Notes under the pieces: model-generated
The model's input: only the letters and a program-made list of their open reading frames with translations
The model's database searches: none
Told to the model about the DNA's origin: nothing
Assembly: GCF_025506355.1 (NCBI RefSeq)
Contig: NZ_JANZYP010000077.1
Span: 336 to 44,750, forward strand
DNA: 44,415 bases
Reading direction: 5' to 3'
Source: Sphaerisporangium corydalis
Lineage (GTDB): Bacteria > Actinomycetota > Actinomycetes > Streptosporangiales > Streptosporangiaceae
In this document: positions 36,492 to 44,415 of the stretch, piece after piece
Layout of the letters: every line of letters starts with the position of its first letter
Numbering within the stretch: the first letter of the stretch is position 1
Program-made: the position numbers and the translations under genes

Positions 36492-36591
36492 GAGGTACCG
36501 CTCCTGGGGTCAAGTCTGGAGGAATTCCCGTCCACAGTTAACTCATCGTGCTATAACAAAAACCCTCCGTTACGTGTCGGGGCAAGGGTGT

Positions 36592-36625
36592 GCACGAAGG
36601 GCGTATGTGTGCACAGGGGGCTTGC
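36592..36625. promoter_or_regulatory. direct repeat upstream of the XRE/TPR regulator
   Basis: TGTGCAC occurs near 36590 and again near 36609 in the 185-bp divergent gap. It could be a binding site for the regulator. A TATAAC near 36554 may be a promoter element. Confidence 0.3.
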
Positions 36626-36676
36626 GGCGTGCGGACCGCCGATGACCGTCCGCGTAGTCCTCCTGAGGATAGAGCG

Positions 36677-38038
36677 ATGCAACGCGAGCCCAACCTTCTT
36701 CTGCGGCACCTCATCGCCGAGGCCGCCTTCTCCCACAAGGGGCTGGCCCGCAGGCTCAACGAGCTCGGCGCCACGCGCGGCCTCACCGCTCTGCGGTACG
36801 ACCACAGCTCGGTGCTTCGGTGGACGGCCGGGCAGCGCCCGCGCGACCCGGTGCCGGTGCTGCTGGCCGAGATCTTCGCGCTGCGGCTCGGCCGGCCGGT
36901 CACCACCGAGGACCTCGGGATGGCGGGGGGAACCACGCCGCTCGACCTCGGACAGGAGTTCACACATTCATGGCAGGAGGGTGTCGAGACCGTGACAGCA
37001 CTATGGAGGGCGGACATGGAGAGACGCAGGTTCCTGCTCGACTCCGCCTTCGCCGTCGGGGCGGGCTCGGCCGGAGCCCTGCGCTGGCTGACCCTCCCCA
37101 TGGAGGGCAGGCCCGAGACCAGTGGCCCGCACCGGGTCGGCGGCGCCGACATCGCCGCCATCCGCGAGGTCACCCGCTCATTCGGCGAGCTGGACAATCG
37201 ATTCGGCGGGGGCCGGGTGCGGTCGGCCGTCGTGAAATATCTCGACTCGGCGGTCGCCCCGCTGCTGAAGGACGGCCTGTACGGCGAGGCCACCGGCCGC
37301 GCGCTGGCCTCGGCGGCGGCGGAGGCCACCCGCCTGGCCGGCTGGATGGCCTACGACCTGGAGCAGCACGGCCTGGCGCAACGCCACCTCATCCAGGCGC
37401 TCGGCCTGGCCCGGGAGGCGGGCGACCACGGCTTCGGCGGCGAGATCCTGGCCGGCATGGCCCACCAAGCCATATATATAGGACAACCACGGCATGCCCT
37501 TGACCTCGCCAGGGCCGCCCAGCTCTCCGCGCGTGGCGCGGAGGTCCCGTCCCTGCTGGCCGAGGCGTACGTGCTGGAGGCCCACGCGCACGCGGCGCTG
37601 TCCGACGGCGCGGCGTGCGCCCTCGCGCTCCACGAGGCCGACCTCGCCTTCGACCGCCGCCGCCCGCAGGAGGAGCCGGAGTGGATCCGCTACTTCGACG
37701 AGGCCTACCTGGCGGCCAAGTACGCGCAGTGCTTCCGCGACCTCGGCGACGGGGGGCAGGCCGTGCGGTACGCGCGCCGGTCACTCGACATGGACGGGCG
37801 CTTCGTGCGCGGCCGGATGTTCAACCTGTCCCTGCTGGCCTCGGCGCACGCGTTGTGCGGGGACGTGGAGGAGGCCTGCGAGGTGGGCACCTCGGCGCTG
37901 GACCTGGCGACGGGCCTGCAGTCGGTGCGGACCAGGTCGTACGTCGCCGACCTGCGTAAACGGCTGGAGCCGCTGAGCGGGGAACCGGCGGTGGCCGAGC
38001 TGGTGCGGCGCACCAGGGAGCTGGCCCCCGCGGCGTAG
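36677..38038 (+). CDS. XRE-type regulator with TPR-like helical domain
   Basis: The 453-residue protein has an N-terminal helix-turn-helix (about residues 10-75; KGLARRLNELGATRG, SSVLRWTAGQRPRD) and a long helical C-terminal region built of TPR-like repeats (AGMAHQAIYIG, YVLEAHAHAAL, AKYAQCFRDLG, LLASAHALCG). An RRRFLLDSAF stretch near residue 118 resembles a Tat motif but is internal and common in this regulator family. Six rare codons in a row encode IYIGQP near 37471. It may respond to a peptide or small signal, as other TPR regulators do. Confidence 0.85.
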   Translation: MQREPNLLLRHLIAEAAFSHKGLARRLNELGATRGLTALRYDHSSVLRWTAGQRPRDPVPVLLAEIFALRLGRPVTTEDLGMAGGTTPLDLGQEFTHSWQEGVETVTALWRADMERRRFLLDSAFAVGAGSAGALRWLTLPMEGRPETSGPHRVGGADIAAIREVTRSFGELDNRFGGGRVRSAVVKYLDSAVAPLLKDGLYGEATGRALASAAAEATRLAGWMAYDLEQHGLAQRHLIQALGLAREAGDHGFGGEILAGMAHQAIYIGQPRHALDLARAAQLSARGAEVPSLLAEAYVLEAHAHAALSDGAACALALHEADLAFDRRRPQEEPEWIRYFDEAYLAAKYAQCFRDLGDGGQAVRYARRSLDMDGRFVRGRMFNLSLLASAHALCGDVEEACEVGTSALDLATGLQSVRTRSYVADLRKRLEPLSGEPAVAELVRRTRELAPAA

Positions 38039-38146: not shown

Positions 38147-39223
38147 CTAGCGGATCGAGCCGGACCACAGGTTGGCGGCCGACTTGTAGACCGCGTAGGT
38201 CTCGCTGTCGAAGTACGCGGAGGTGCTGAAGTCGTAGCGGCCGTTGCCGTCGGAGTCGCCGATCAGGCTGGTGACACCGTTGACGTAGCCGAGACGCTTC
38301 GTGCTGCTGTACTTCGCGATCCAGGGGCCGCCGGCGGAGCCCGCGGTCATGGAGCACTTCAGGGCGATCTGCGCCTCGGCCTTGTAGGCGGCGGAGACGC
38401 CGGCGGGCTTGGTCTTGCCGTAGCACCACTTCGGCGTGACACCCGTGAACGGCTTGTCGCCGTCGGGGTGCGGGCCGGCCGGGTAGCCGAAGGCGTAGAC
38501 CGGCTCGCCGATCTTCTGGTTCCACGCGAAGCCCTGGCCGCCGACGTTGTCACCGAGGCGACCGGCGTCCTTCCAGGTCCGCACGTTGATGCCGTTGTAG
38601 ACCGTGACGAACGCGTAGTCGCTGTCGTAGTCCTCGTACACCGAGAAGTCGTAGTGCGTGTACGCCGACTTGCCGACGTAGATGCCCCACGGCGCCTTGC
38701 CCTGGTAGTAGCCGGGGACGAAGACCCAGTGGTCGAGGGTCTCGCGGTTGGCGTCGGTGTCGTAGACACAGTGCCCGGCGGTTGCCACCAGGTTGTGGTA
38801 CTTCGACTGGACCGACGACGCCGAACACCAGTACGGCTTGCCGTGGACGCGGAAGAACACCTTGCCGATGGTCTTGGGCAGGTTGACGTTCTTCACCTTG
38901 GTGGGGGTGATCTTCTCCTGCCCGATGGGCGGGACGGTGCCGGTCTTGCCGGTGGGGGCGGCGTCGCTGCCACCGAACTTGACCTTGCCCTTCACCGAGG
39001 AGTCGTTGGTGTAGCGGGTGGCGGCCCTGAACTGCTTGCCGCCGCTCGCACTCCAGAACTTCGCGGTGTCGTTCGCCTTCGCCTTGCTGGAGGCGAGGGA
39101 GACGTTCGTCGGCTTCGGCTTGGCCGTGGCCGTGGCCGACGAGGTGAGGGCGGCGCCGATCATGCCGGTGGCGGTGATGGCGGCGCCCAGAGGGAGGATG
39201 ATGCGCTTTGCTCGGGAACTCAT
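38147..39223 (-). CDS. secreted trypsin/V8-like serine protease homolog A, catalytic Ser replaced
   Basis: The 358-residue protein has a signal peptide (about residues 1-33), a propeptide ending in the conserved segment from PPIGQEKI to VFF, and a chymotrypsin-fold domain. His151 (TAGHC) and the Asp of SDYAFV are present. The nucleophile motif reads TAGSAGGPW: position 297 is Ala (GCC) where paralogs have Ser. It may be a pseudoprotease or use Ser296. ATG 39223 follows AGAGGAG. Only five residues stand where paralogs C and D have 149. Confidence 0.9.
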   Translation of the reverse strand: MSSRAKRIILPLGAAITATGMIGAALTSSATATAKPKPTNVSLASSKAKANDTAKFWSASGGKQFRAATRYTNDSSVKGKVKFGGSDAAPTGKTGTVPPIGQEKITPTKVKNVNLPKTIGKVFFRVHGKPYWCSASSVQSKYHNLVATAGHCVYDTDANRETLDHWVFVPGYYQGKAPWGIYVGKSAYTHYDFSVYEDYDSDYAFVTVYNGINVRTWKDAGRLGDNVGGQGFAWNQKIGEPVYAFGYPAGPHPDGDKPFTGVTPKWCYGKTKPAGVSAAYKAEAQIALKCSMTAGSAGGPWIAKYSSTKRLGYVNGVTSLIGDSDGNGRYDFSTSAYFDSETYAVYKSAANLWSGSIR

Positions 39224-39285
39224 ATAACTCCTCTTGTTCTGACATGGAAACATCACTTATGTCCCATGCGTCCCAAAGGGGATGT

Positions 39286-39291
39286 CTTCGA
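39286..39291 (-). promoter_or_regulatory. possible -10 of protease A
   Basis: A TAGGCT on the reverse strand in the span 39292-39300 region lies about 70 nt before the start codon. The leader after it contains CCCTTTGGGACG, shared with protease B. Exact position is approximate. Confidence 0.25.
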
Positions 39292-39375
39292 GCCTATGCG
39301 ATTTCTTTACTATCCCCATATGAACAGGTGGGCAAAACGGATATTTGGGCACTTGTAGGGATTTTTAGCAAGGGG

Positions 39376-39397
39376 AACCTCACTGTGAGGTGAGGTT
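39376..39397. promoter_or_regulatory. nested palindrome upstream of protease A
   Basis: AACCTCA (39376-39382) and TGAGGTT (39391-39397) form a 7-bp inverted repeat, and ACCTCA-CTG-TGAGGT nests inside it. It lies about 155 nt upstream of protease A and could be an operator. Confidence 0.4.
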
Positions 39398-39399
39398 GA

Positions 39400-39433
39400 A
39401 AAACGCGAAAAGGGCCCGGCCGAAGCCGGGCCC
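39400..39433 (-). terminator. intrinsic terminator of protease B
   Basis: GGGCCCGGC and GCCGGGCCC (39412-39433) pair around a 4-nt loop. On the minus strand the stem is followed by TTTTCGCGTTTTT, so it ends protease B transcription. Confidence 0.8.
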
Positions 39434-39470
39434 CTCGTCACAACGCGCTCAGACGGCGGTCATGAGGTGT

Positions 39471-40550
39471 TCACTTGCCGATCTTGCCGGACCACAGGTT
39501 CGAGGCCGACTTGTAGATCGCGTAGGTCTCGCCGTCGAAGTACGGCGAGGTGGCGAAGTCGAAGCGGCCGTTGGCGTCCGTGTCGCCCACCAGGCTGGTC
39601 ACACCGTTGATGTAACCGAGGCGCTTGGTGCTGCTGTACTGCGCGATCCACGGTCCGCCCGAGGCGCCCGCGGTCATGGAGCACTTCAGCGCGATCTGGG
39701 CCTCGGCCTTGAACCCGGAGACCGGGCCGGCGGCCGAGGTCTTGCCGTAGCAGTACTTCGGCGTCTGGCCGGTGAAGGGGTGGTCGCCGTCGGGGTGCGG
39801 GCCGGCCGGGTAGCCGAACGCGTAGACCGTCTGGCCGATCTTCTGGTTCCAGGAGAAGCCCTGGCCGCCGACGTTGTCGCCCAGGCGGCCGACGTCCTTC
39901 CAGGTCCTGGCCTCGACACCGTTGTAGACGGTGACGAAGGCGTAGTCGCTGTCGAAGTCCTCGTAGTTGGCGAAGTCGAAGTGCGTGTACGCCGACTTGC
40001 CGACGTAGATGCCCCACGGAGCCTTGCCCTGGTAGTAGCCAGGGACGAAGACCCAGCGGTCGAGGGTGTCACGGTTGGCGTCGGTGTCGTAGACACAGTG
40101 CCCGGCCGTCGCCACCAGGTTGTGGTACTTGCCCTGGATCGAGGACCCGGAGCACCAGTAGGTCTTGCCGTCGAGACGGAAGAAGACCTTGCCGATGGTC
40201 CTGGGCAGGTTGACGTTCTTCACCTTGGTGGGGGTGATCTTCTCCTGCCCGATGGGCGGGACGGTGCCGGTCTTGCCGTCGGGGGCGGCGTCGCCGCCGC
40301 CGAGCCGGATCCTGCCCTTGACGGCGGCGTCCTCGGTGAACTTGGTGGCGGCCTTGAGGGCCTTGCCGTCACTGGCCGTCCAGAACTTCACGGTCTCCTG
40401 GGCGGCGGCCTTGGTCGTGGACAGGCCGTCCGCTGCCGGGGCAGCGGCGGCGGAAGCGGCCGCGGAGGCCGTGAGGGATGCCGCGATCATGCCGGTGGCG
40501 ACGGCGACGCCACCGAGAGGGAGCATGAGGCGCTTGACTCGGGTGTTCAA
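39471..40550 (-). CDS. secreted trypsin/V8-like serine protease B
   Basis: The 359-residue paralog has a signal peptide, an Ala-rich region, the same propeptide block and an intact triad: His151, the Asp of SDYAFV, and Ser297 in TAGASGGPW. Start TTG 40550 was chosen because AAGGAG lies 5 nt upstream and the protein then begins LNTRVKR, exactly parallel to paralog C; no nearby ATG or GTG fits. It is the likely active member of the short pair A/B. Confidence 0.9.
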   Translation of the reverse strand: MNTRVKRLMLPLGGVAVATGMIAASLTASAAASAAAAPAADGLSTTKAAAQETVKFWTASDGKALKAATKFTEDAAVKGRIRLGGGDAAPDGKTGTVPPIGQEKITPTKVKNVNLPRTIGKVFFRLDGKTYWCSGSSIQGKYHNLVATAGHCVYDTDANRDTLDRWVFVPGYYQGKAPWGIYVGKSAYTHFDFANYEDFDSDYAFVTVYNGVEARTWKDVGRLGDNVGGQGFSWNQKIGQTVYAFGYPAGPHPDGDHPFTGQTPKYCYGKTSAAGPVSGFKAEAQIALKCSMTAGASGGPWIAQYSSTKRLGYINGVTSLVGDTDANGRFDFATSPYFDGETYAIYKSASNLWSGKIGK

Positions 40551-40569
40551 TGAGACTCCTTGTTCTGCC

Positions 40570-40611
40570 GCAGGAGGTGACTCCTGCCCCGCTCGTCCCA
40601 AAAGGGACGAG
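40570..40611 (-). promoter_or_regulatory. tandem hairpins in the protease B leader
   Basis: CTCGTCCC/GGGACGAG with a 4-nt loop (40592-40611) and GCAGGAG/CTCCTGC with a 4-nt loop (40570-40587) are both perfect stems. They stand just upstream of the ribosome site and may stabilise the mRNA or control translation. TAGGTT near 40620 on the reverse strand may be the -10. Confidence 0.55.
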
Positions 40612-40793
40612 GGAAACCTATCGGGCTGATCATGAGAAATGGGCCGCAAAGCTCGACGGTGCGCCGGGCCTGTGGCCCATCTGGACGTCTCGGAGGGCGC
40701 CCAAGAAGGGGGCTGCCATCCGGCCAGGCACAGGTGGAATCGGTCCAACGGACCTCTGGCACACCAGGTGGGAGGCGTGCCGGACCTGTGCTG

Positions 40794-40809
40794 TGTGACG
40801 CATATCACT
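40794..40809. promoter_or_regulatory. CRP-like site upstream of protease B
   Basis: TGTGA-N6-TCACT lies about 245 nt before the protease B start. Its centre (TGTGACGCA) equals that of the site upstream of protease C. Confidence 0.55.
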
Positions 40810-40839
40810 GTCAGCGCGAACGAGGCGGTCCTCAGCAAA

Positions 40840-40867
40840 CAGGACCCGGCACGGATGCCGGGTCCTG
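40840..40867 (-). terminator. terminator of protease C
   Basis: CAGGACCCGGC and GCCGGGTCCTG pair exactly around a 6-nt loop, 50 nt after the protease C stop. Confidence 0.75.
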
Positions 40868-40917
40868 CTGAGTGCTTGTGCGACTTCCTAGCGAGCTAGA
40901 ACGTCAGACCGAGAACG

Positions 40918-42453
40918 TCAGGCCTTGGAGACCAGGTCGCCATCGGAGGTGACGATCTTGCCGGACCACAGGTTCGAGGCCGACTTGTAGATCGCGTAGG
41001 TCTCGCTGTCGAAGTACGGCGAGGTGCTGAAGTCGATACGGCCATTGGCGTCAGCGTCACCGATGAGGCTGGTCACACCGTTGATGTAGCCGAGACGCTT
41101 CGTGCTGCTGTACTTCAGGAGCCACGGGGCGCCAGAGGAGCCGGCGGTCATGGAGCACTTCAGGCCGATCTGGGCCTCCGCCTTGAACGCGGCGGCGGGC
41201 TTGGCGGCGAAGGTCTTGCCGTAGCACCACTTCGGCGTGACACCGGTGAACGGCTTGTCACCGTCGGGGTGCGGGGCCGCGGGGTAGCCGAAGATGTAGA
41301 CCGGCTGGCCGACCTTCTGGTTCCAGGTGAAGCCCTGGCCGCCGACGTTGTCGCCCAGGCGACCCGCGTCCTTGTAGTACTCGATGTAGTACACGGTCTT
41401 GAAGTACTTGGTGGCCGAGGTCACTTCGACCTTGTAGGCCAGGAAGTACTTGGTGATCGTGAACGCGTGGTCCACGATCTTCTTGTAGCCAGGACCGGTG
41501 TACGCGTTGTACTCCTCCTCGCTGACGATGATGGTCTGCGTCAGCTCGGGGGCCTGCTGGAAGTTGACGCCCGAGTCGTTCTTCGGGGCCTTGTCGAACT
41601 CGTCCTTGGAGACTTCCTTGGTCGCGAGGGCCGCGTCCTTGGTGTTCCAGGGGACGATCTTCTGGGTGTCGGCCGGCTTGGTGAAGACGGGAGCCTTGGG
41701 GCCGAACTCGTCGAGGAGCTTGTTGTACTCCTCCTTGGAGATCTCGACGTCCTTGCCGTACTTGTAGCCCTGCCACTTGTCGAAGGTGTCCTTGGAGACA
41801 GCCTTCTCACCGGCGTACGAGATGCCGTTGTAGACCGTGACGAACGCGTAGTCGCTGTCGTAGTCCTCGTACACCGCGAAGTCGTAGTGGGTGTAGGCGG
41901 CCTTGCCGACGTAGATGCCCCAGGGAGCCTTGCCCTGGTAGTAGCCCGGGATGAACACCCAGTTGTCGAGCGCACCGTTCTGGATGCCCTCATCGAACAC
42001 GCAGTGTCCGGCGGTGGCGACCAGGTTGTGGTACTTGCTCTGCACCGAGGACGCGGAGCACCAGTACTCCTTGTCGCCCACCGTGAAGAAGACCTTGCCG
42101 ATGGTCTTCGGCAGGTTGACGTTCTTCACCTTGGTGGGGGTGATCTTCTCCTGGCCGATCGGCGGGACGGTGCCGGCCTTGCCCGACGGAGCGGCGTCGC
42201 CGCCACCGAGCTTGACCTTGCCCGAGACCGAGCTGTCGTCGGTGAGCTGCGCGGCGGCCTTCAGGTTGGCACCCGAGTTGGCCGTCCAATAGTCCGTGAT
42301 CTTCTGCGCGCTGGTCGCGGAAGCCAGGGAGACGACCTTCTTGGTGGGGGCGGTCGCGGCGGAAGCCGACGAGACCAGAGTCGCACCGATCATGCTGGTG
42401 GCGGCGATTGCTCCGCCGAGGGGGAGAACGAGGCGCTTGGCACGGGTGTTCAA
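40918..42453 (-). CDS. secreted serine protease C with 149-residue insertion
   Basis: The 511-residue paralog has a signal peptide and the same propeptide block and protease fold as A and B. Between VYNGI and KDAGRL it carries residues 212-360, where A and B have five. This insertion is Lys/Glu/Tyr-rich and holds four copies of [VI]S[KE]..[FY][DN] (at 219, 238, 281 and 310). His and Asp are present; the Ser motif reads GSSGAPW. TTG 42453 follows AAGGAG. A C-terminal tail VTSDGDLVSKA is shared with D. Confidence 0.9.
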   Translation of the reverse strand: MNTRAKRLVLPLGGAIAATSMIGATLVSSASAATAPTKKVVSLASATSAQKITDYWTANSGANLKAAAQLTDDSSVSGKVKLGGGDAAPSGKAGTVPPIGQEKITPTKVKNVNLPKTIGKVFFTVGDKEYWCSASSVQSKYHNLVATAGHCVFDEGIQNGALDNWVFIPGYYQGKAPWGIYVGKAAYTHYDFAVYEDYDSDYAFVTVYNGISYAGEKAVSKDTFDKWQGYKYGKDVEISKEEYNKLLDEFGPKAPVFTKPADTQKIVPWNTKDAALATKEVSKDEFDKAPKNDSGVNFQQAPELTQTIIVSEEEYNAYTGPGYKKIVDHAFTITKYFLAYKVEVTSATKYFKTVYYIEYYKDAGRLGDNVGGQGFTWNQKVGQPVYIFGYPAAPHPDGDKPFTGVTPKWCYGKTFAAKPAAAFKAEAQIGLKCSMTAGSSGAPWLLKYSSTKRLGYINGVTSLIGDADANGRIDFSTSPYFDSETYAIYKSASNLWSGKIVTSDGDLVSKA

Positions 42454-42727
42454 GGAAACTCCTTGGGCTGTCGTGGAACGCATCTTGCGGCCCATGCGTC
42501 AGTAAAGGGATAACCAGAAGATAGCGAGAAGATCTTGGTCTGTGGGGACGATTCCGGGGGAATTTTGACCTTCGCCCGGGCGTGACCCTTTCGTAACCCC
42601 CGCGCTAGGCGGACAGACCCTGTCAGATACGCGCAACCCATGGCCTTACTCGCAGATCAGGCCGGGTGCCAACCTTCTGGGTCCGATGTGGTCGAAGTGA
42701 ACCGCCACGGTTCCACGAACGGCCCAG

Positions 42728-42743
42728 TGTGACGCAGATCACA
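42728..42743. promoter_or_regulatory. perfect CRP-like site upstream of protease C
   Basis: TGTGA-N6-TCACA is the full consensus palindrome, about 275 nt before the protease C start. The rest of 42454-43077 holds no gene I can support; a 6-bp ACGCAT/ATGCGT repeat lies near 42480-42500. Confidence 0.6.
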
Positions 42744-43077
42744 TGGAACCAATGGAGCCGATTCGGGGTGTGGCTACGTCTAAGCGCCCCGCATCGCCCG
42801 GAATCCGGGTGAACCGGTTGTCGCACCCTCTCCCTCATGATCCAGAGAGTCGCGGTGCCCTCACTCCCAGTGGACGAGCGGCGGCGAAATTTCCGCGCGA
42901 TGCTCGAATTTTCTGTGCGGTCGGCACCCGAGGCGCGCGGAGAGCGGTGCCTCCTGGAGCCGCCGGCCCGGGTTCCCGTGTCCGCGCTCTCCACGGCCCG
43001 TCAGGGGCGGGCGCCTCCCGTACGCCGGGACGGCGGGAGCGTGTCGTCCGGGAGCGTGTCAGTACCCGGGAACGCGA

Positions 43078-43107
43078 GCAGGGCCCGGCACGAATGCCGG
43101 GCCCTGC
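43078..43107 (-). terminator. terminator of protease D
   Basis: GCAGGGCCCGGC and GCCGGGCCCTGC pair exactly around a 6-nt loop, 40 nt after the protease D stop. Confidence 0.8.
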
Positions 43108-43146
43108 CTTGATGCTGGGACTGCTGTGCTCTAGCTGGCTAGAACG

Positions 43147-44415
43147 TCAGGCCTTGGAGACGAGGTCGCCGTCCTTGGTGACGATCGAGCCGGACCAGAG
43201 GTTGGCGGCCGACTTGTAGATCGCGTAGGTCTCGGCGTCGAAGTACGGCGAGGTGCTGAAGTCGATACGGCCATTGGCGTCAGCGTCACCGATGAGGCTG
43301 GTGACACCGTTGATGTAGCCGAGACGCTTCGTGCTGCTGTACTTGAGGATCCAGGGGCCACCGGAAGAACCGGCGGTCATGGAGCACTTGAGGCCGATCT
43401 GGGCCTCCGCCTTGAACTTCGCGGCCGCGGCGGCGGCGAAGGTCTTGCCGTAGCACCACTTCGGCGTGACACCGGTGAACGGCTTGTCACCGTCGGGGTG
43501 CGGGGCCGCGGGGTAGCCGAACGCGTAGACCGGCTGGCCGACCTTCTGGTTCCAGGTGAAGCCCTGGCCACCGACGTTGTCGCCCAGGCGACCCGCGTCC
43601 TTGTAGTACTCGATGACGTAGACGAGCTTGAAGTACTTGGTCGTCGAGGACTTCTTCACCCAGTACGAAAGGTAGTAGTGGGTGATGGTGTACGCGTGGT
43701 CTTCGATCTTCTTGTAGCCGGGGCCGGTGTACGCGTTGTAGTCGGCCTCGCTGACGACGACCTTCTCGACGCGACGCGACTGGTGGAAGTTCGCGTTCCG
43801 CGGGACCGAGGCGGCCTTGTCGTACTCGTCCTTGGTGACTTCCTTGCGGGCGCGCTCGCCGTCCTTGGCACCCCAGGGCAGGATGACCTCGGTGCCGGTG
43901 GTCTCCGTGGTGACCGGGGCGTTCTCGATGCCGAACTCGTCAACCAGCTTGTCGTAAGCGGGCTTGTCGATTTCCTGCTTGTCGATGAACTTGTAGCCCT
44001 GCCACCCGTCGTAGGTCGCCTTGGAGACGGCCTTCTCGCCGGCGAAGGCGATGCCGTTGTAGACGGTGACGAACGCGTAGTCGCTGTCGTAGTCCTCGTA
44101 CACCGCGAAGTCGTAGTGGGTGTAAGCGGCCTTGCCGACGTAGATGCCCCAGGGAGCCTTGCCCTGGTAGTAGCCCGGGATGAACACCCAGTTGTCGAGC
44201 GCACCGTTCTGGACACCCTCATCGAACACGCAGTGTCCGGCGGTGGCGACCAGGTTGTGGTACTTGCTCTGCACCGAGGACGCGGAGCACCAGTACTCCT
44301 TGTCGCCCACCGTGAAGAAGACCTTGCCGATGGTCTTCGGCAGGTTGACGTTCTTCACCTTGGTGGGGGTGATCTTCTCCTGGCCGATCGGCGGGACGGT
44401 GCCGGCCTTGCCCGA
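43147..44415 (-). CDS. secreted serine protease D with 149-residue insertion, N-terminus cut by window edge
   Basis: At least 423 codons are present, and the frame runs off the right end, so signal peptide and early propeptide are missing. The triad is intact: TAGHC, SDYAFV and GSSGGPW. The insertion at 43603-44049 has exactly the same 149-codon length and place as in C but has diverged (VSKATYDG, IDKPAYDK, VTKDEYDK, VSEADYNA), while flanking protease sequence is nearly identical. Of the two long members it has the more classical Ser motif. Confidence 0.9.
   Translation of the reverse strand, partial: SGKAGTVPPIGQEKITPTKVKNVNLPKTIGKVFFTVGDKEYWCSASSVQSKYHNLVATAGHCVFDEGVQNGALDNWVFIPGYYQGKAPWGIYVGKAAYTHYDFAVYEDYDSDYAFVTVYNGIAFAGEKAVSKATYDGWQGYKFIDKQEIDKPAYDKLVDEFGIENAPVTTETTGTEVILPWGAKDGERARKEVTKDEYDKAASVPRNANFHQSRRVEKVVVSEADYNAYTGPGYKKIEDHAYTITHYYLSYWVKKSSTTKYFKLVYVIEYYKDAGRLGDNVGGQGFTWNQKVGQPVYAFGYPAAPHPDGDKPFTGVTPKWCYGKTFAAAAAAKFKAEAQIGLKCSMTAGSSGGPWILKYSSTKRLGYINGVTSLIGDADANGRIDFSTSPYFDAETYAIYKSAANLWSGSIVTKDGDLVSKA

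Follow-up and report, generated by a model that had tools for sequence, protein, structure and literature searches.

A tandem array of predicted trypsin-fold proteases and pseudoproteases with a hypervariable insert in Sphaerisporangium corydalis

Genes of the array and their active sites

The stretch of DNA analysed here, referred to as the window, comprises 44,415 nucleotides of Sphaerisporangium corydalis (assembly GCF_025506355.1, contig NZ_JANZYP010000077.1, positions 336 to 44,750). On its minus strand, between positions 38147 and 44415, the listing of open reading frames (ORFs) contains four paralogous genes of the trypsin fold, A to D, which stand head to tail. Gene A (38147-39256, start most likely at 39223) is a short member and a predicted pseudoprotease, its catalytic motif reads GSAGGP, with alanine replacing the catalytic serine at a codon at about 38333-38335. 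Gene B (39471-40547), also short, starts with TTG, has an intact triad (GASGGP) and can be aligned with two proteases of solved structure, Anisep and AL20. The long members are gene C (40918-42495), with serine in the motif GSSGAP and with a TTG codon and ribosome-binding site inside the ORF that by eye fit better as its start, and gene D (43147-44415), with serine in GSSGGP and an ORF that is cut by the contig end.

The window ends where its contig (C138) ends, and a second contig of the genome, C19, opens with the same last 127 bases. This exact overlap places the N-terminal part of D at positions 2-436 of locus L012 on C19, where it is followed on the same strand by the short gene E (409 amino acids, L012 919-2148) and the long gene F (501 amino acids, L012 2411-3916). 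The 127 bases of D (44289-44415, identical to L012 1-127) also occur unchanged in C (42060-42186, minus strand), and the identity between C and D extends slightly further into the gene. This repeat probably explains the break of the assembly within D, and C-D-E-F would be the only linear path visible through it. The original prediction, a set of four secreted-protease paralogues on one strand, two short and two long, with near-identical stretches of DNA and a signal peptide of D beyond the edge, holds in each of these respects except number. The signal peptide of D lies on C19 (signal peptides were assigned by eye), and with E and F the array has at least six head-to-tail genes, situated between an SSI-type inhibitor gene and a conserved neighbour gene. 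Two more distant paralogues form a tandem pair on contig C130 (L013 5629-6663 and 6715-8061, minus strand), both have Ser195.

The nearest solved structures are Anisep (3WY8) and AL20 (3CP7), and the chymotrypsin fold of the structure model of C is closest to both. These two enzymes are placed in the 'S1D-new' group of chymotrypsin-type proteases in the available text of PMC6524800; judged by sequence A and F belong to the same group by descent, whatever their status as enzymes. A (29.1, E=1.9e-6) and B (33.6) score above the Pfam Trypsin_2 (PF13365) cut-off of 27.6 and B is also above the cut-off of Pfam Trypsin, C (22.3) and D (24.7), whose trypsin domain is split by an insert, fall below. 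A near-invariant block, GTVPPIGQEKITPTKVKNVNLP(K/R)TIGKVFF, is present in A to D. It had been described as a nearly unchanged part of the propeptide, the conservation is as described, but the structural alignment to mature Anisep starts within the block (model residue 22 corresponds to chain residue 4), so that on the model it seems to span the junction of pro-region and mature protein.

The site of the catalytic serine follows from an alignment to solved enzymes (GGSSGGPW). The His-Asp-Ser triad is held by B, C, D and E, while A has alanine and F threonine at the serine position. Eleven Sphaerisporangium genomes were examined; alanine is present in all eight in which A was found (around the copy in G001 the sequence contains Ns and the ORFs are broken), threonine in all ten in which F was found, and E has serine at position 195 in 11/11. 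The members had been predicted to differ in their active sites, and with A lacking the catalytic serine in every genome in which it was found the difference is stronger than was claimed. A and F are predicted to be pseudoproteases, their nucleophile being replaced in intact, conserved genes, although the threonine of F could keep a trace of activity.

Ratios of non-synonymous to synonymous substitution (dN/dS) were calculated for Sphaerisporangium sequences by the simple NG86 method, as medians over the protease domain. They are 0.17 for A (n=7), 0.20 for F (n=10), 0.21 for C/D (n=16), 0.22 for E (n=11) and 0.33 for B (n=9), the figures for serine-less members thus covering A and F of this genus only. 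A and F are under purifying selection, and since they are as constrained as the other members they are not decaying copies.

Serine loss extends beyond this genus. The main comparison set consists of 78 named loci from 76 genomes, of genera which we take to be Streptosporangiaceae, with flanks of up to 10 kb; they represent the top 80 among 395 confirmed relatives, which were found via motifs that include His57 or Asp102 and ranked by likeness to A. Among their 394 genes 146 have serine at position 195 and 248 do not (158 Asp, 64 Leu, 9 Ile, 6 Ala, 5 Asn, 4 Thr and 2 Gly), counts which, given this selection, do not come from a random sample; more distant families may lie among the relatives outside the best 80. 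At least one serine-less member is present in 70 of the 76 genomes, at least one serine member in 72, and both kinds in 66. In the four genomes without a serine gene (L089, L108, L109, L117) the arrays lie at contig ends.

After exclusion of ORFs shorter than 300 amino acids (33/522) and of 40 rows with identical frames or Ns (489 to 449), among them L045, in which a run of Ns gives a false residue, 449 distinct ORFs remained. At positions 57, 102 and 195 these read HDS in 178, HDD in 166, HDL in 23, SNL in 22, HNL in 14, HDT in 10 and HDA in 10, with rarer others. HDS is found in 136/156 short and 34/184 long members, serine loss therefore tracks insert length, in a count that ignores the tree. 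In a FastTree phylogeny A forms a group with alanine in 7/7 distinct sequences (support 0.967) and F one with threonine in 10/10 (0.996), the sister group of which has serine in 13/13. The larger clade that holds E is HDS in 105/105 and an Asp clade is HDD in 162/174; A, F, the Asp clade and the Leu/Ile group stand apart. Parsimony on the midpoint-rooted tree gives at least nine changes between serine and other residues, or 15 losses if serine is never regained, numbers that are approximate because some deep nodes are poorly supported (0.305 or below).

Two of the altered groups deserve mention in their own right. The Asp195 members, from Nonomuraea, Streptosporangium and relatives, retain both His57 and Asp102 in 166 of 167 distinct sequences, unlike the Leu/Ile group, and one may speculate that the altered site binds something, for example a metal. 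Herbidospora arrays (L096, L098, L099, L101, L103, L104 and L116) contain many members that lack the entire triad, with Ser-Asn-Leu at 57/102/195, and these carry inserts of about 50-80 residues.

A hypervariable insert in a constant frame

The long members contain an insert of about 150 residues after the Asp102 strand, and no occurrence of it was found outside the long members of this protease family. In C (41365-41826, minus strand) and in D (43594-44055, minus strand) it has 154 amino acids, and the two inserts are only 59% identical, whereas the conserved block and first protease half of the two genes differ by a dN of 0.004 and a dS of 0.04. The insert is modelled at a predicted local distance difference test score (pLDDT) of 89-92, and its predicted structure has no fold match in the PDB.

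Among Sphaerisporangium C/D genes the insert has a median identity of 0.55 and a dN/dS of 0.95, against identities of 0.93 and 0.91 and dN/dS of 0.13 and 0.30 in the two halves of the frame. The insert of F is milder (identity 0.81, dN/dS 0.46). The contrast recurs among 148 long genes. In 60 pairs taken from different genomes the frames share 95% identity or more, yet the inserts of 40 of these pairs are below 0.6 identity and those of 15 below 0.4. Between Nonomuraea aridisoli and N. terrae the insert is 36% identical and the frame 99.2%, and between Streptosporangium minutum and S. canum the DNA is 43-63% identical inside the insert and 88-100% on both flanks. In nine pairs compared in steps of 60 bases identity drops at the borders of the insert, to within roughly one step. 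Most of these drops are steep, those in the two pairs of sister Sphaerisporangium shallow. As a control, other Asp195 members have a linker of 36 residues in place of the insert, and its identity is 0.86 where frames are at least 0.95 identical (34 pairs). The inserts of 50-80 residues of the Leu group are variable at frame identities of 0.90-0.95, but above 0.95 those of the SNL members (median 0.94) and of the HNL members (0.73) are mostly alike.

Two artefactual or alternative sources of this variation were considered. Near-identical frames in tandem could be joined wrongly during assembly, and inserts were therefore compared with the whole sister array in eight locus pairs. No insert there has a match that exceeds the one on its best-matching frame by more than 0.05, so misassembly within a genome does not explain the differences. 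The genomes of one checked pair, G007 and G008, are in four and two contigs. Silent donor cassettes were rejected as every insert match falls in a long open frame, though very divergent donors would escape such a search. In the genome of the window the insert of C matches three places, which belong to C, D and F. An insert profile run on six genomes finds 16 places in five of them, all in open frames of 422-632 amino acids, and in a sample of the class 7/296 genomes match, all of the same family, at 18 places in frames of 422-592 amino acids.

The original prediction had suggested gene conversion, and for the protease frame this is supported. Within-genome C/D pairs (10) have median frame dS of 0.089 and 0.122, between-genome pairs (126) 0.288 and 0.228, the first value of each referring to the block and first protease half; the lower dS within genomes indicates that conversion keeps the frames alike. 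It acts far less on the inserts, whose dS in the same pairs is not much lower within genomes (0.316) than between them (0.404). Similar inserts are also found on dissimilar frames within one genome (L082, L118, L108), in L082 the inserts are 0.82 alike on frames 0.76 alike, as if cassettes had moved between frames. The nearest insert lies on the same frame cluster in 128/148 cases and on another in 20/148, so most of the variation is between alleles of one position.

Conservation, neighbours and regulation

The nearest relatives of the array are found in Sphaerisporangium, where the order across the 11 genomes runs from A and B through one, two or three long C/D genes to E and F. It is uninterrupted in four other genomes (G005, G007, G008, G010), G002 and G009 show it with A lacking, and in others it is distributed over several contigs. 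In all, no A was found in G002, G004 or G009, and no F in G004. In the GTDB family of the window 61 of 120 sampled genomes match B at E <= 1e-25, 45 of them with five or more matching pieces (one gene may yield two). Sampled relatives from other families have at most two distant matches to C, of which the strongest stands at 3.4e-17. The copies might have been independent duplicates with no conserved clustering; instead multi-member arrays recur in Sphaerisporangium and in other genera, where related arrays adjoin the same neighbour gene.

This neighbour (36590-38038, plus strand) is convergent with the array and weakly TPR-like, having TPR matches below the cut-off only. Homologues are present in 61/108 loci, the window and duplicate loci being counted, and the gene is probably a regulator.

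On the other side the array is followed by the SSI-type inhibitor gene beside F (L012 4184-4687, plus strand, opposite F), which scores 79.9 bits with PF00720 against a cut-off of 23.9. A second SSI-domain gene, encoding a long Gly/Pro-rich region and then the SSI domain, lies about 7 kb away (L012 10929-12326, plus strand), and the whole genome has seven SSI places. For each of the 11 Sphaerisporangium genomes the locus at the F or E side contains an SSI match, and in the eight Sphaerisporangium loci measured 124-244 bases separate this gene from F, which is on the other strand. In the wide set an SSI gene is beside or within the array in 33/83 loci, a count in which Herbidospora and most Microtetraspora loci offered less than 1 kb of flank to search. 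The P1 residues of the neighbouring SSIs, as we assign them by the scheme we take to apply, vary (His, Lys, Arg, Met and others). Adjoining the SSI gene is an ORF of 1643 amino acids (L012 5029-9960, plus strand) with LamG-like and CBM96 matches above cut-off and a weak fn3 match, homologous pieces of which occur in 6/108 loci, its own included.

A CRP-type palindrome, TGTGA-N6-TCACA, lies as an exact match 290 bases before the start of C (42728-42743), a similar site (TGTGACGCATATCAC) precedes B (40794-40808) and a further one is at L012 668-683. The pattern occurs twice in the window against 0.23 times expected. Each of the 20 C/D entries listed has it between -287 and -306, in a list in which loci of one genome are counted twice and only C/D genes with a pattern-detected start are included. 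It also precedes five listed B starts but no listed start of A, E or F, and the array may perhaps contain two classes of regulation. Among the 54-base leaders of nine genes the folding of B stands at z -3.9, seven others are at -0.2 to -2.1 and E is at +1.0. Each gene had been thought to possess its own terminator; GC-rich hairpins can be seen by eye after genes (for example at 39409-39436), but a terminator scan found four terminator-like sites against 4.3 expected, so this claim stands in part only.

An origin from phages or plasmids was also considered and finds no support. A phage search found no relatives, and a search of viral contigs with a single pair of patterns gave 109 stretches with a match, none of which was confirmed. 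The best 10 of 35 plasmid records are below 60% identity and all but one cover only part of the query, the one that covers at least 80% is an 11.85 Mb Nonomuraea record which is evidently a chromosome.

Interpretation and comparison with known systems

The anatomy of the array, that is its genes, their conservation, the loss of serine and the variable insert, can be stated with high confidence. What it does is a different matter. The array looks more like an extracellular recognition system than a means of ordinary digestion, and for a recognition function the chances are even at best. We propose, with about equal weight for and against, that these sequences would encode an inherited set of secreted S1D-type (AL20/Anisep-like) proteins which displays a diversifying binding domain, its active members being held in check by SSI. 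After secretion and processing at the conserved block, members with an intact triad (B, E and the long C and D) could act as proteases, and the others would be pseudoproteases kept by selection, with Ala in A, Thr in F and mostly Asp, Leu or Ile in other genera. Purifying selection and conversion between neighbours would hold the frame constant as a carrier, and the insert, diversified and swapped, would offer a variable binding surface for a changing extracellular partner such as phage, competitor or sibling cells. The active members would cut and the adjacent SSI-type inhibitor would restrain them. More tentatively, and with the balance somewhat against it, the array may be a receptor-like extracellular repertoire, a constant, homogenised tandem (pseudo)protease frame with an internal domain of unmatched fold that is swapped and varied among close relatives, a few active effectors and SSI as a safety catch; such a repertoire could serve in kin recognition or in defence against phage or predators outside the cell.

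Several observations weigh against the proposal. The dN/dS of 0.95 comes from plain NG86 and not from a test by site; errors of alignment in the insert inflate its dN, and its dS is raised as well (0.40, compared with 0.22-0.27 for the halves of the frame). Nor do all inserts vary: 10 of the 60 pairs with near-identical frames are at or above 0.85, several orthologous inserts in the eight locus pairs are 0.89-0.99 alike, and that of F is 0.99 alike between two sister Sphaerisporangium. C and D keep their serine, so variability of the insert does not need serine loss, and all five members in Bailinhaonella have serine. Finally, no SSI is found near many Nonomuraea arrays despite flanks of 7-8.6 kb.

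This last point bears also on the main rival, in which the pseudoproteases bind the neighbouring SSI or the active members and so set the activity of B and E by titration or allostery, which includes the decoy and activation ideas of the original prediction. Serine proteases with Ser changed to Ala commonly still bind canonical inhibitors. The SSI gene lies close to F in Sphaerisporangium and beside or inside the array in the 33 of 83 loci noted above, and the pseudoprotease MamO activates its partner MamE, according to the available text of PMC4794232. This rival, however, leaves the hypervariable insert unexplained, and some lineages have lost His57 and Asp102 as well; we regard it as unlikely as a full account, though titration of SSI and recognition can coexist. 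Variation of the insert could also be non-adaptive, in a tolerant, fast-drifting domain or through recombination without selection. The raised dS is as expected if divergent cassettes recombine in, and the alike inserts on unlike frames of L082 fit this too, but the insert is modelled with confidence and keeps roughly its size and pattern, and the linker at the same place is not variable, which makes this reading quite improbable.

A slightly better case, though still a poor one, can be made for ordinary nutritional proteases, duplicated by lineage and with some copies decaying. AL20 and Anisep are plain extracellular proteases and tandem duplication is common. Yet the serine-less members are fixed by clade with intact ORFs and, where measured, dN/dS of 0.17-0.20, both kinds of member are kept in most genomes (66/76), and decay would not yield a constant frame around a variable insert. 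It is very improbable that the variants at residue 195 are still enzymes with Thr or Asp as the catalytic residue. Nearly all Asp195 members do keep His57 and Asp102, but we know of no S1 enzyme with an Asp nucleophile, Ala, Leu and Ile cannot act in this way, and the replacements differ by lineage.

The array is of wider interest. Many genomes keep several pseudoproteases beside active paralogues, so their role can be tested by comparison and deletion. An insert that can differ in more than half its residues between sister species, between flanks 95-99% identical, is a sign of strong diversification, and in a secreted protein of soil bacteria this points to an extracellular process of conflict or recognition. 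The design of frame and insert could also be a natural display scaffold. No array of this kind is described in the literature searched, as far as its available text goes, most subscription journals being outside its scope; 'pseudoprotease' and 'Streptosporang' do not co-occur there, and the main text of a multi-omics paper on P. rosea (PMC8269224) does not contain the word 'protease'.

AL20 and Anisep differ from the array in having serine present and chains of about 218 residues without an insert, the long members here carry one. To our knowledge such proteases do not occur in arrays, and pseudoproteases are usually met singly. The scabies mite SMIPP-S proteins, of which 3H7O is row 49 of the fold-match list for the model of C, resemble the array in being a multigene family of S1 paralogues with lost catalytic residues. 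They are proteins of a eukaryotic parasite, whereas the array is bacterial, and we know of no bacterial array, SSI neighbour or hypervariable insert among them.

MamE and MamO are a bacterial serine protease and its degenerate activating partner, and the available text describes the pseudoproteases there as having arisen independently (PMC4794232). Unlike the array, they are magnetosome proteins of magnetotactic bacteria. We know of no tandem array with a variable insert among them. The Chp and Pat-1 serine hydrolases of Clavibacter resemble the array in forming families of putative secreted serine proteases in an actinobacterium. Their genes are located on an island and a plasmid, and in the available text ChpG is argued to be an active hydrolase and unlikely to be a pseudoprotease (PMC11290698), in which it differs from A and F. 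C finds only matches below 60% identity, in four records, among Clavibacter plasmids. A secreted serine protease of Salinispora, extracellular and actinobacterial as here, lowers phage titres; it has the motif GDSGGP and needs its serine, and the text available to us describes no array or variable insert (PMC13175485).

Polymorphic toxins and other secreted systems with a constant carrier share with the array the combination of a conserved carrier and an exchangeable domain, on the available text of PMC3482391. Their variable toxin domain is C-terminal, whereas the variable part of the array is internal and seems to keep one fold.

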